Shown: positions 12,646 to 63,855 of the stretch, in pieces
How positions within the stretch are numbered: position 1 is the stretch's first letter
Layout: each line of letters begins with the position of its first letter
From: Rhizobium sp. C1
Lineage (GTDB): Bacteria > Pseudomonadota > Alphaproteobacteria > Rhizobiales > Rhizobiaceae
DNA: 64,000 nt
Direction: 5' to 3'
Assembly (NCBI RefSeq): GCF_021026335.1
Contig: NZ_JAJNCY010000001.1
Span: 930,001-994,000, forward strand
Position numbers and translations under genes: made by a program
The notes under the pieces: generated by a model
Seen by the model: the letters and a program-made list of their open reading frames with translations, nothing else
Told to the model about the DNA's origin: nothing
The model's database searches: none

Positions 12646-12660
12646 GTTCAATTTTTGTTC
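12646..12660 (+). promoter_or_regulatory. LexA (SOS) box of dinB
   Basis: GTTC (12646-12649), seven bases AATTTTT, GTTC (12657-12660): a perfect match to the alphaproteobacterial LexA site GTTC-N7-GTTC. It ends nine bases before the preferred dinB ATG, so RNA polymerase and LexA would compete close to the start codon. Confidence 0.85.
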
Positions 12661-12669
12661 CAGAGACTC

Positions 12670-13965
12670 ATGACGGGCGACACCATCCTGCCAGGCTTTT
12701 GCCGTGACTGCTTCCAGCCGATCACAGGCCGGGCGGAGCGTTGCAAGGCCTGCGGGAGCCCGCGTCTGGTCAGGCACGGGGAACTGAACGATCTGCATCT
12801 CGCCCATATCGACTGCGATGCCTTCTATGCCAGCGTCGAGAAGCGCGACAACCCGGATCTCGCCGACAAGCCCGTCATCGTCGGCGGCGGCAAACGCGGC
12901 GTCGTTTCGACCTGCTGTTACATTGCACGCATACGCGGCGTGCGCTCGGCGATGCCGATGTTCAAAGCGTTGGAGGCCTGTCCGGACGCGGTCGTCATCA
13001 AGCCGGACATGGAGAAATATAGCCGCGTGGGCCGGCAAATCCGCCAGATGATGCAGGACCTGACCCCGCTAGTCGAACCGCTTTCCATCGACGAGGCGTT
13101 TCTCGATCTGAAGGGGACAGAGCTGATCCACCATCACGAGCCCCCTGCCCGGCTCCTGGCACGCTTCGCGCAACGCGTGGAGGACGAGGTTGGGGTGACG
13201 GTCTCTGTCGGGCTTTCCTATTGCAAATTCCTGGCCAAGGTTGCCTCCGACATGCGCAAGCCGCGGGGCTTCAGCGTCATCGGGCGGGAGGAGGCCCTGT
13301 CCTTCCTGGCGCCCAAGCCGGTGACGCTGATATGGGGCGTCGGCCGGGCCTTCGCGGAAAAGCTCGCTCAGGACGGAATTCGCGAGATCGGGCAATTGCA
13401 GCAGATGGACGAAGCCGCCTTGATGCGGCGGTATGGCACGATGGGTCAGCGGCTCTTCAAGCTGTCACAAGGGCTGGACGACCGGCAGGTGCATAGCGAC
13501 GGCGACGCCAAAAGCATTTCGGCGGAGACGACGTTTTCCGAGGATATCGCCGATCTTGAAACGTTGACTGGACATTTGCGAGCCCTGTCCGAAAAGGTCT
13601 CGCGGCGTCTGAAGCGGAGCGGTGTTGCCGGGCAGACGGTCGTTCTCAAACTGAAGACCCAGGACTTCAAGTCCCGAACCCGCAGTTTCAGCCTCGACAA
13701 CCCGACCCAGCTGGCGGACCGCATTTTCCGAACCGGCCTTTCCCTGCTCGAAAAGGAAGCGGGAAGCACGAAGTTCCGCCTGATCGGCATCGGCGTGACC
13801 TCGCTCGGCCAGGCCACGCTCGCAGACCCCATGGACCTCATAGACGAGCAAGCGGCACGGCGTGCCAAGGCCGAAGCGGCCATCGACGCGCTGCGGGACA
13901 AGTTTGGCAATCGCAGCGTCGAGACCGGCTATACATTTCGCCCGACAGATGAGCGCTCGCGCTGA
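12670..13965 (+). CDS. dinB: DNA polymerase IV (Y-family translesion polymerase)
   Basis: A lesion-bypass polymerase. The palm domain carries the two metal-binding acidic motifs, [16 protein letters not shown] and [11 protein letters not shown] helix-hairpin-helix thumb ([18 protein letters not shown]) and a little-finger domain follow. The N terminus has an extra zinc ribbon (CRDCFQP...CKACGSPR, roughly residues 10-38), seen in rhizobial DinB proteins but absent from E. coli Pol IV. I choose ATG 12670 (431 aa) because a TTG at 12655 lies inside the LexA box and could not be transcribed from a repressed promoter at that site. Control by LexA is indicated by the adjacent SOS box. Confidence 0.94.
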
Positions 13966-15309: not shown

Positions 15310-18816
<3,507 letters not shown>

Positions 18817-18915
18817 CGCTCATTCTCCATGTCCTGAATCAAGAATGCATTGTGGGAAATCAGGAGGTGTCCTGTCCAGCCGTAATGCCGGACGGGGCGG
18901 CAGCGTCCCCGAAAA

Positions 18916-19002
18916 TCACATGGCCATGAGGATGAGAGACATGGTGGCGACGAACATGGTCATGGATGCGAATGCGGCGATATCACGAAGGATGTCAGTC
19001 AT
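18916..19002 (-). CDS. SOS-controlled 28-residue membrane peptide (SidA-like candidate)
   Basis: A 28-codon frame from ATG 19002 to TGA 18916-18918, preceded by a strong ribosome site (AAGGAG, 6-7 bases upstream). The peptide starts MTDILRDIAAFA and runs through a methionine-rich hydrophobic helix ending LILMAM. It is a single inner-membrane span with a short polar N terminus. The promoter just upstream carries three GTTC repeats at exact 11-base spacing, so LexA should repress it. In Caulobacter the LexA-controlled 29-residue membrane peptide SidA blocks division by acting on FtsW. This gene matches in size, topology and regulation, but I cannot align the two, so homology is inference. Confidence 0.7.
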   Translation of the reverse strand: MTDILRDIAAFASMTMFVATMSLILMAM

Positions 19003-19023
19003 AGCGGGCTCCTTTCCACTTAT

Positions 19024-19049
19024 GTTCATACTATGTTCTCATTATGTTC
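19024..19049 (-). promoter_or_regulatory. Triple LexA repeat (two overlapping SOS boxes)
   Basis: GTTC at 19024-19027, 19035-19038 and 19046-19049, each pair separated by exactly seven bases. This makes two overlapping GTTC-N7-GTTC LexA sites sharing the middle half-site. They cover the -10 region and spacer of the promoter for the 28-codon gene. Confidence 0.85.
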
Positions 19050-19059
19050 AAAGAGTCAA
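19030..19059 (-). promoter_or_regulatory. Sigma-70 promoter of the 28-codon SOS gene
   Basis: On the minus strand, TTGACT (19054-19059, preceded by C as in the alphaproteobacterial CTTGAC) is separated by 18 bases from CATAGT (19030-19035). Transcription would start near 19023, giving a leader of about 20 bases. The LexA repeats overlap the promoter completely. Confidence 0.6.
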
Positions 19060-19113
19060 GCGCCCCTGCCGAAGATTTTCGGAAGTGACTGAGATCACGG
19101 AAGAATCCGCCGC

Positions 19114-19128
19114 TTTTTTTTGGGGGGG
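19114..19128. repeat. T8-G7 homopolymer junction
   Basis: Eight T (19114-19121) directly followed by seven G (19122-19128), in the space between the lolD stop and the SOS promoter. Such runs are prone to slippage and to sequencing error. No gene spans it. Confidence 0.9.
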
Positions 19129-19181
19129 CCGTACGGCGGCCGGCGGATATAAGGTGGAAAATTGGAAAGTCGAGCCGAGGC

Positions 19182-19865
19182 TCAGAACTCCAGAACCCTG
19201 CCCTCATCAAGGGTGATGCGGCGATCCATCATGGAGGCGAGCTCGTGATTGTGGGTCGCGATCATGGCCGCAAGACCTGATTGACGGACGAGTGCCGTCA
19301 GCGCATCGAAAACATAACCGGCCGTGTCGGGGTCGAGATTGCCGGTCGGTTCGTCTGCAAGCAGAATCTGCGGTGCGTTGGCAACCGCACGAGCGATCGC
19401 AACGCGCTGCTGTTCGCCGCCGGAAAGCTCGGCAGGACGATGGGTGCCGCGATGGCCGATGCGCATATAGGCGAGCAGCTGTTCGGCGCGCTCGGCGGCA
19501 TCCTTGCGCGAGAGTCCCGCAATCAGCTGCGGCATCATGATGTTTTCCAGCGCGCTGAACTCGGGCAGGAGATGATGGAACTGGTAGACGAAGCCGATCT
19601 CGGCGCGCCGCACGGCGGTGCGCTCGTCGTCAGACATGTCTGCGCAGGAATGGCCGCCCACCATGACATCGCCCTCGCTGGGACGTTCAAGCAGGCCCGC
19701 AATGTGTAGAAGCGTCGACTTGCCGGTGCCGGAGGGCGCAACGAGCGCCACGGTCTCCCCGCTGCGAAGCGTGAAATTGGCCCCTTTCAGGATCGAAAGC
19801 TCCTGATCGCCCTGCCCGTAGCTGCGCCGAATATTCTTCAGTTCCAGGACTGCTTGCTGCTTCAT
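19182..19865 (-). CDS. lolD: Lipoprotein-releasing system ATPase LolD
   Basis: A 227-residue ABC ATPase. Walker A is in APSGTGKST, the Q-loop is near [17 protein letters not shown], the signature is [14 protein letters not shown], Walker B is [12 protein letters not shown], and the switch histidine is in IATHNHELA. The [15 protein letters not shown] region matches LolD. With the membrane partner encoded 16 bases upstream it should extract lipoproteins from the inner membrane and pass them to LolA. It is the last gene of the proS-lolC/E-lolD group. No clear T-run terminator follows. Confidence 0.95.
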
Positions 19866-19881: not shown

Positions 19882-21186
19882 TTATTCGTATCTCAGCGCC
19901 TGGACGGGATCCAGCTTGGCGGCGCGCCAGGCCGGGAAAATCGTCGCCAGAAAGGACAGCGCCAATGCCATGGCGATGACCGACAATGTCTCTCCAAGAT
20001 TCATTTGGGCCGGCAGCTGGCTCAGGAAATAAAGTTCGGGATTGAAAAGCGTCGTGCCGGACAGCCAGGAGAAAAACTGCCGGATCCGCTCGATATTGAG
20101 ACACACGACAACGCCGAGAATGACGCCGGCAAATGTGCCCGCAGTGCCGATCGCTGCCCCCGTCATGAAGAAAATGCGCATGACAGAGCCGGAGGTTGCG
20201 CCCATCGTTCGCAGGATGGCGATATCGTGCCCCTTGTCCTTCACCAGCATGATCAGGCCGGAAATGATATTGAGAGCCGCCACCAGCACGATCAGCGTCA
20301 GGATCATGAACATCACGTTTCGCTCGACCTGCAGAGCAGAAAAGAAGGTCGAGTTCCGTTGTCTCCAGTCGGTGATAAAGATCTGACGCCCCGCCGCCTT
20401 TTCGACCGGCTCCCGCAATTCATCGATCTTATCGGGATTGTCGACGAAGAGTTCGATCGACTGAACGATACCTTCCGAGTTGAAATAGAGCTGCGCCTGC
20501 TCCAGCGGCATGAAGATGATGCTGGAGTCATATTCCGACATGCCGATCTCGAAAACCGCCGCCACCTTGTAGGATTTCACACGCGGGTTGACGCCCATCG
20601 GCGTCACGTCACCTTCCGGTGATATAAGGGTCACGGTATCGCCTGCACTCACTCCGAGCGTGGCGGCGAGCCTGGAGCCGATGGCGATTCCGTCGCCGGA
20701 CGCAAAGCCGACGAGGTCCCCTGCCTTGATGTTATTAGCGACATATTTCAGCTTGGTGATATCTTCGGCGCGGATGCCTCGCACCAGCGCACCGGACCCC
20801 GCGCCGTTCTTGCCGGAAGCCAGCGTCTCGCCCTCGACCAGCGGAATGGCCATCTTCACCCCGGGCACGGCAGAGAATTTCTTCGCCAGATCATTGTAGT
20901 TGCTGAGAGGCGTATCAACGGGCTGAATGATCATATGCCCGTTGACGCCCAGAATGCGGGAGATCAGTTCGGTGCGGAAGCCGTTCATCACCGCCATGAC
21001 GATGATGAGGGTGGCGACGCCCAGCATGATGCCGACGAAGGAAAAGCCGGCGATCACGGAAATGAACGCTTCCTTGCGCCGGGCGCGGAGATAGCGCCAG
21101 GCCACCATGCGTTCGAAGGCGGAAAACGGCCCCGTTTTGGTGATCCGGTTTGCCGTTGCGCTTGCGCCGCTATCGCCTTTCGCCAT
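19882..21186 (-). CDS. lolC: Lipoprotein-releasing system permease (LolC/LolE type)
   Basis: A 434-residue membrane protein with the LolC/E/MacB layout. One N-terminal helix ([20 protein letters not shown]) is followed by a large periplasmic domain (roughly residues 70-280). Three C-terminal helices follow, and the usual ending [13 protein letters not shown]. Only one such permease is present, as in many alphaproteobacteria where a single protein replaces the LolC-LolE pair, so the exact symbol (lolC, lolE or lolF) is a naming choice. It lies between proS (19-base gap) and lolD. Confidence 0.93.
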
Positions 21187-62499: not shown

Positions 62500-63855
62500 T
62501 CAAACCAGCATCGACATCGGGTTTTCGATATAGCCCTTGAAGGCGGCCAGCAGTTCGGCGCCCAGCGCACCATCGACGCAGCGATGGTCGGTGGAGAGCG
62601 TGACGGTCATGACCTGCGCGATGACCATCTCGCCGTTCTTCACGACGACGCGCTGTTCACCAGCGCCGACTGCGAGGATGGTCGCATGCGGCGGGTTGAC
62701 GACAGCGGCGAAGTGCTTGACGCCCATCATGCCCATGTTGGACACGGCAGTCGTGCCGCCCTGATATTCCTCGGGCTTCAGCTTCCGTTCCTTGGCGCGC
62801 TTGCCGTAGTCCTTCATCTCGTTGGAGATGGTGGACAGGCTCTTCTCTTCGGCGCGTCGGATGATCGGCGTGATCAGGCCACCGGGGATCGAGACGGCAA
62901 CGCCGACATCGGCATGCTTGTGCTTGACCATGTTCGTATCGGTCCAGGACACGTTGGCGTCCGGAACGTCACGCAGTGCCAGAGCCAGCGCCTTGATGAT
63001 CATGTCGTTGACCGAGAGCTTGTAGGCGGCGCGGTCGTCCTTGCGGGGTGCCGAATGGTTCAGCTGGCCGCGCAGTTCCAGAAGCGCGTCGAGCTCGCAA
63101 TCCACCGTGACGTAGAAGTGCGGGATCGTCTGCTTGGACTCAACGAGGCGCTTGGCAATCGTCTTGCGCATGCCGTCATGCGGCACGAGTTCGTAGGAAC
63201 CCGGCTCGAACAGCTTGAGAACGGCTTCTTCCGAAGCCTGCTTGGCAAGCGGTGCAGCCGAGGCGGCAGCAGCAGGCGCGGCGGCCGGAGCAGCGGCGGC
63301 AGCGGGCGCTGCCTTGCCGGTTCCGGAGCTGACAGCCTTCTCGACGTCGGACTTGACGACGCGGCCGTGCGGGCCGGTGCCGGAAATCGCCGAGATGTCG
63401 AGACCTGCTTCCTTCGCCAGACGGCGGGCCAGCGGCGAGGAGAACGGACGATTGCCCGAAGGAGCAGCCGAGGACACGGCAGCAGCGGGTGCTGCGGCCG
63501 GAGCAGCAGCAGGCGCCTGGGCGGCTGCGGGTGCAGCAGCGGCCGGAGCCGGTTCAGCTTTCGGCGCGGGGGCAGCGGATGCGCCACCGGCAGCCGCAGC
63601 CTTCACATCTTCGCCTTCGGCGGCGAGGATGGCGATCAGGCTGTTGACCTTGACGCCTTCGGTGCCGGCGGGAACGACGATCTTGGCGATCGTGCCTTCA
63701 TCGACGGCTTCGACTTCCATCGTCGCCTTGTCGGTTTCGATTTCGGCGATGACATCGCCGGACTTGATCGTGTCGCCTTCCTTGACCAGCCACTTGGCGA
63801 GGTTGCCCTCTTCCATGGTCGGCGAAAGGGCCGGCATCGTGATATTGATCGGCAT
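62500..63855 (-). CDS. pdhC: Pyruvate dehydrogenase E2, dihydrolipoamide acetyltransferase
   Basis: A 451-residue protein. The single lipoyl domain carries the lipoylated Lys in [16 protein letters not shown] long Ala/Pro linker follows, then the E1/E3-binding domain ([19 protein letters not shown]), another Ala-rich linker, and the catalytic domain ending with [17 protein letters not shown] (active His and Asp). GGAGGGCGAGG precedes ATG 63855. It follows pdhB by 14 bases. The lipoate comes from LipA and reoxidation from LpdA, both encoded nearby. Confidence 0.96.

Follow-up and report, generated by a model that had tools for sequence, protein, structure and literature searches.

We propose that the window, which is the whole 64,000-nucleotide stretch of Rhizobium sp. 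C1 DNA analysed here, contains a sidA gene. An ORF just upstream of dnaE (Table 1), unannotated at its locus, encodes a 28-residue peptide that is a probable SidA ortholog by sequence and locus. We consider it likely that this ORF is the local sidA, that is, the gene of a LexA-repressed, single-helix inner-membrane micropeptide that would be induced in the SOS response and inhibit the late divisome. In Caulobacter, SidA, an inner-membrane protein of 29 residues, is the main inhibitor of division in the SOS response and interacts with both FtsW and FtsN (PMC4211646). Mitomycin C strongly induces a sidA promoter reporter (PMC5189948), and filamentation is absent from a lexA sidA double mutant (PMC13384398). 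SidA itself is thus already known, and the window peptide is a new SidA-type member. In the open literature, with subscription papers mostly outside the scope, we found no description of an SOS division inhibitor in rhizobia or agrobacteria. The same literature, which did not include the founding SidA paper, yielded no article that reports SidA from bacteria other than Caulobacter or treats it as conserved next to dnaE.

Table 1. Position of the proposed sidA ortholog, its expression signals and its neighbours in the window.
Feature	Position	Strand	Basis or remark
dnaE, DNA polymerase III alpha subunit	15310..18816	-	99 nt downstream of the peptide stop
28-codon ORF (with stop), MTDILRDIAAFASMTMFVATMSLILMAM, proposed sidA ortholog	18916..19002	-	sequence, relatives, purifying selection
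Ribosome-binding site AAAGGAG	19009..19015	-	sequence; 6 nt 5' of the ATG
Candidate LexA operator GTTC-N7-GTTC-N7-GTTC, three half-sites	19024..19049		sequence; pattern also at lexA, uvrA and a DinB-type gene
Sigma-70-type promoter TTGACT-18-CATAGT, 9 of 12 match	19030..19059	-	promoter scan
lolD-type ABC ATPase, upstream neighbour	19182..19865	-	LolD model is the best match, under its curated cut-off
lolC/E permease	19882..21186	-	model match

The first-pass annotation had pointed to a 28-codon frame without naming its strand. The frame is real and is read from the minus strand, from an ATG at 19002 to a stop ending at 18916, while plus-strand translation of the same bases gives a polar product. 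The good ribosome site and the single hydrophobic segment that the annotation had described were also confirmed, the latter by a hydropathy filter (>1.5 over 17 residues) that the peptide passes and that predicts one such segment. Its layout is a short charged N-terminus followed by this segment, with no charged residue after D7. A 37-codon version starting at the ATG at 19029 was rejected, as that ATG lies within the LexA repeats and has no ribosome site; most relatives, moreover, have the 28-codon frame starting from an ATG behind a ribosome site. A plasmid search with the region gave no match.

Transcription of the ORF is predicted to be under LexA control. We read GTTC-N7-GTTC as the LexA operator type of this genome because copies of it are found at lexA (starting 66 nt before the gene, which was located separately), at a uvrA frame (143 nt before it) and at a DinB-type gene of the window. 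The latter, an impB/mucB/samB-type polymerase gene (12655-13965, plus strand), has an AT-rich LexA box, GTTCAATTTTTGTTC, right at its start (12646-12660). Within the window, GAACN7GAAC is enriched, with 10 copies against a shuffle mean of 2.2, and none of 100 shuffles reached 10. At the peptide locus, the promoter had been described as fully covered by LexA repeats. This was slightly too strong: the GTTC repeats overlap the -10 element and most of the spacer, as claimed, but leave the -35 element uncovered. In the family, TTGA[CA] occurs at most 18 nt 5' of a half-site in the upstream regions of 55 of 62 coding sequences.

Relatives of the 28-residue query were found in 99 of 199 genomes of the window's family, its own genome included (E up to 1). 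In all of the 30 best loci dnaE lies downstream of the peptide, and lolD falls within the flank in 20 of them; in this family the gene mostly sits between lolD and dnaE. These loci were selected by peptide similarity, and the independent part of the evidence is the LexA box, which is present in exact form in 28 of the 30, against a shuffle mean of 0.6. In the two others (L007 and L008) AAAC replaces one GAAC. We also fetched 39 weaker matches, namely the next 34 rows and five picked from the weaker end of the 99; the peptide was recovered in 38 and the exact box in 34. The fetched stretches of these weaker loci end before dnaE, and the adjacency counts cover the 30 best loci. Peptide length is well kept, being 28 residues in 28 of 29 best-locus relatives and in at least 32 of 38 weaker-locus ones, the rest having 27 to 33. 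Joint conservation of the residues and of the GTTC repeats upstream of dnaE, which had been named as the check for the proposal, is therefore found in genomes of the family.

A blind locus test was carried out on family genomes without a peptide match in the first search: 80 of 100 such genomes were taken, 77 had a dnaE match and 71 regions were fetched. Most regions were scanned over 650 nt upstream of the dnaE match, with L113, L188 and L225 shortened by contig ends. An exact box together with a short hydrophobic ORF was present in 20 of the 71 (a 20-residue version in L202 is counted here and left out of the family profile), whereas shuffles gave 0.05 and the reverse strand 2. Five further regions have the peptide by profile, with half-degraded boxes; in the other 46, neither the box-plus-ORF scan nor the profile scan detected it. 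In these blind regions, an upstream lolD goes with the peptide: where lolD lies upstream, 16 regions have the peptide and 5 do not, while the figures are 9 and 41 where lolD was not seen. Among L150-L179, family genomes without a peptide match, 27 of 30 loci show no peptide and no close LolD (66-71% identical), and the three loci with LolD all have the peptide. Where the lolD-dnaE locus is broken up, the peptide thus seems to be lost as well.

The peptide is under purifying selection. Three same-genus relatives differ from the window by no amino-acid change, five changed third-position sites and one stop-codon swap. Over 62 family coding sequences, median pN is 0.30 and median pS 0.67 (the latter near saturation), and pN is below pS in 1887 of 1891 pairs, which are non-independent. 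D7, A9, A10, F11, S13 and S22 do not vary among 24 aligned family sequences. A frame of only 28 codons that matches no Pfam or NCBIfam model might be suspected to be a chance ORF; given the relatives, the adjacency to dnaE, the LexA boxes and the purifying selection, we have discarded that reading, whose probability we regard as negligible.

The main rival explanation follows from the position of the ORF. On the minus strand the order is lolC/E, lolD, peptide ORF and dnaE, and dnaE starts so close downstream, with no intrinsic terminator found in a scan of the interval, that the ORF could be a leader whose translation tunes dnaE while the peptide itself does little. An upstream ORF of this kind was suggested in Sinorhizobium meliloti for sORF25, in the 5'-UTR of dnaE1 (PMC10117765). 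Yet selection acts here on the protein, with synonymous change tolerated and six residues invariant, and a leader could do without a conserved hydrophobic segment and without a LexA operator. Rfam models gave no match in 18700-19300, and a second promoter-like site past the ORF (TGGACA-18-CACAAT, 18878-18849) could serve dnaE alone. We therefore regard a mere leader role as quite unlikely. sORF25 resembles the window ORF as a small ORF at the same position, novel in a ribosome-profiling and proteogenomics study; it differs in being proposed there as an upstream ORF, and we infer from its position alone that it belongs to the same family (PMC10117765). If sORF25 is this gene, that study is the best sign that an ORF of the window type is translated (PMC10117765), and our results suggest a new reading for it.

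In Caulobacter, SidA has the locus tag CCNA_02004 (PMC11034885). In a table of the older numbering, dnaE is CC1926 and lexA CC1902 (PMC1839093), and lexA is also CCNA_01979 (PMC11535069). With the resulting offset of 77, dnaE should be CCNA_02003 and therefore adjacent to sidA; no paper in the open literature that we found names CCNA_02003. Four named Caulobacter genomes were reached through the S-layer gene RsaA, dnaE was located and the sequence upstream was read. PopZ had been considered as a marker of Caulobacteraceae and was dropped, as it led to an order with four genomes in which box and ORF were absent. All four Caulobacter genomes, which are closely related and amount to about one independent case, show GAACATCTTGTGAAC and, after it and just upstream of dnaE, a 29-residue hydrophobic ORF whose ATG is preceded by a GGAG site; the ORF has one sequence or near variants of it. 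This ORF is presumably SidA, to judge by its length, LexA box, hydrophobicity, position and the locus-tag arithmetic, rather than by the NA1000 sequence.

The window peptide and the ORF of the Caulobacter species share 29% identity over 28 residues in an ungapped alignment (M1, I4, R6, A10, S13, F17, V18 and M21, with D/E at 7). A family profile was built from the 63 distinct 28-mers among 79 peptides, restricted to those of 28 residues, with the Caulobacter ORFs held out. Against it these ORFs obtained E values of 0.0018-0.0031, above all 10,000 shuffles. With a position-specific matrix scored on the family's own composition as background, the score of the Caulobacter ORF was reached by 8 of 200,000 full shuffles and by 1 of 13,906 hydrophobic 28-mers from long open frames. 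When polar and hydrophobic positions were kept, 467 of 200,000 shuffles reached it (p ~0.002), and this class-preserving value is the fairest single number for homology. Since the operator and the side of dnaE also agree, common descent of the two is the best reading. The first-pass annotation had proposed the peptide as a candidate SidA-like division inhibitor from size, topology and regulation, and the case is strengthened by the Caulobacter ORF, whose place relative to dnaE is the same and whose sequence is detectably similar.

The likeness to SidA of C. crescentus (CCNA_02004) thus covers length (28 and 29 residues), a single hydrophobic segment after a short charged N-terminus, a LexA direct-repeat operator and a place just upstream of dnaE, as read for the ORF of the Caulobacter species. 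The differences are the low identity, the MTD..RD..AAF motif and triple GTTC repeat, which belong to the window peptide and its locus, and lolD, which is upstream in the window and in one of the four Caulobacter loci. Function, moreover, is established for Caulobacter SidA only. It could be argued that a conserved SOS membrane peptide of SidA ancestry has another target here, for example polar growth or another envelope enzyme, as the N-terminal motif is typical of the best-matching family members and targets are unreadable from sequence. Against it speaks that the Caulobacter ORF lies on this side of dnaE too, is alike in regulation and size, and can be aligned with the peptide in its core; we hold a different target to be unlikely.

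As regards the mechanism, damage induction, membrane insertion, binding to FtsW and FtsN and division block are all proposed for the window peptide by analogy with Caulobacter SidA. DNA damage would cause RecA-stimulated cleavage of LexA, by which the triple GTTC repeat would be vacated. The TTGACT/CATAGT promoter could fire once LexA is gone, and the peptide would be made and insert in the inner membrane. There it might bind FtsW (and FtsN), and septal wall synthesis by the FtsW/FtsI/FtsN complex would stay off until the DNA has been repaired.

E. coli TisB, too, is under LexA control and has about the same length as the window peptide. Overproduced short hydrophobic peptides can be toxic, and the window peptide might accordingly be imagined as an SOS-induced, membrane-depolarising toxin of a type I toxin-antitoxin pair, leading to dormancy and not to a specific division block. 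A promoter scan of the plus strand in 18750-19250, where an antisense antitoxin might start, gave no match, nor did Rfam, although both are weak tests. The lack of charge after D7 also argues against such a toxin, and locus and sequence tie the peptide to a Caulobacter ORF with the properties of SidA; this makes a toxin of the TisB kind very unlikely. Known division inhibitors offer further comparisons. DidA of Caulobacter, which is small and induced by damage, inhibits division through the FtsW/I/N complex, but it is SOS-independent, controlled by DriD, and binds FtsN (PMC4211646). AlphaFold 3 models of low confidence put SidA on TM7 of FtsW (PMC13396833). YneA, SosA and ChiZ of Gram-positive bacteria are likewise small damage-induced membrane division inhibitors that bind FtsW or are predicted to do so, but the low-confidence models put SidA on the opposite side of this helix (PMC13396833), and we claim no sequence relation.

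Beyond the family, a search of 385 genomes of the class with a first profile (A1) was set aside: it gave 16 matches, the window's own genome included, and in three inspected ones (L033, L034 and L039) the locus contains no exact LexA box. As 28 positions are too short at such a distance, dnaE was located instead and the sequence upstream of it was read. This provided 112 regions from other families (109 of the 129 dnaE loci of the class and three more). An exact box with a short hydrophobic ORF occurs in 15 of them, whereas shuffles gave 0.0 and the reverse strand 1. One more region, L230, was recognised by profile, so that 16 of 112 have a comparable peptide; in the other 96, the box-plus-ORF and profile scans found none. 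In these families lolD does not go with the peptide: 54 of 63 regions with lolD upstream are without it, and the gap between lolD and dnaE is often empty.

The 15 class ORFs, chosen without any motif, and SidA as a set beat their own full shuffles against the family profile with a Fisher p of 9e-14, which overstates residue-level homology, since full shuffles also break up the arrangement of a charged beginning and a hydrophobic end. Taken singly, L056, L061, L108 and L132 are unremarkable (reached by 66 to 134 of 500 shuffles) and L060, L098 and L142 borderline (22 to 37 of 500). A [KRQ][DE] motif, defined after looking and illustrative only, is present in 11 of 16 peptides and came up in none of 20,000 shuffle rounds. 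Two extra box-linked ORFs with poor ribosome sites, in L097 and L133, were excluded from the profile scan and from the motif and Fisher tests. The 29-residue ORF of L230 (genome G261, upstream of dnaE), MARWVREMLSLASCGGFVWMAWQAALLAY, stands behind several GAAC half-sites and has FVWM in common with the Caulobacter ORF. By their sequences, this ORF and that of L133, MTNFLKDFLALSSVVGVLWAVTVWSAIVGSALT, look like possible bridges between the Caulobacter and the family forms.

It is tempting to propose, and on balance we favour with reservation, that SidA is the ancestral SOS division checkpoint of the class. It would have long been kept beside dnaE, frequently with a core of [KR][DE] followed by hydrophobic residues, while many lines lost it or let it diverge, and it would have been overlooked at its ~27 to 47 codons. 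A shared transcript may also tie the supply of polymerase to the division block. That the peptide descended vertically is suggested by locus and operator rather than by a tree. A SidA family defined by sequence and locus would open the DNA-damage checkpoint to tests in symbionts and elsewhere in the class, and its dozens of natural variants could help to map by what means a 28-residue helix might block FtsW/FtsI/FtsN. Moreover, a micropeptide known from Caulobacter can be traced across families by locus and operator where sequence search fails.

Some further observations concern the LexA pattern in the genome of the window. The DinB-type gene with its box is a second probable SOS gene of the window, 6.3 kb from the peptide ORF. 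Genome-wide, each strand has 62 copies of GTTC-N7-GTTC, the reversed pattern occurring 39 and 33 times, and many of these sites are background with no evident SOS role. Ten pattern sites were chosen by eye as controls for their AT-rich spacers, and 10 neighbouring frames from seven of them were scanned with Pfam. One is uvrA, the sole recognisable SOS gene, and the others code for a phage tail protein, a PEP mutase and a Suv3-type helicase or gave no match. Site L288 is in the neighbourhood of a second DnaE-type gene, beside a frame without Pfam match. A GC-rich triple GAAC-N7 repeat at 63197-63222 of the window, within a 477-codon frame without Pfam match, is probably a coincidence. Finally, site L292 (G000:C11:212000-216000) adjoins a phage tail tube gene and possibly belongs to a LexA-controlled prophage or tailocin.
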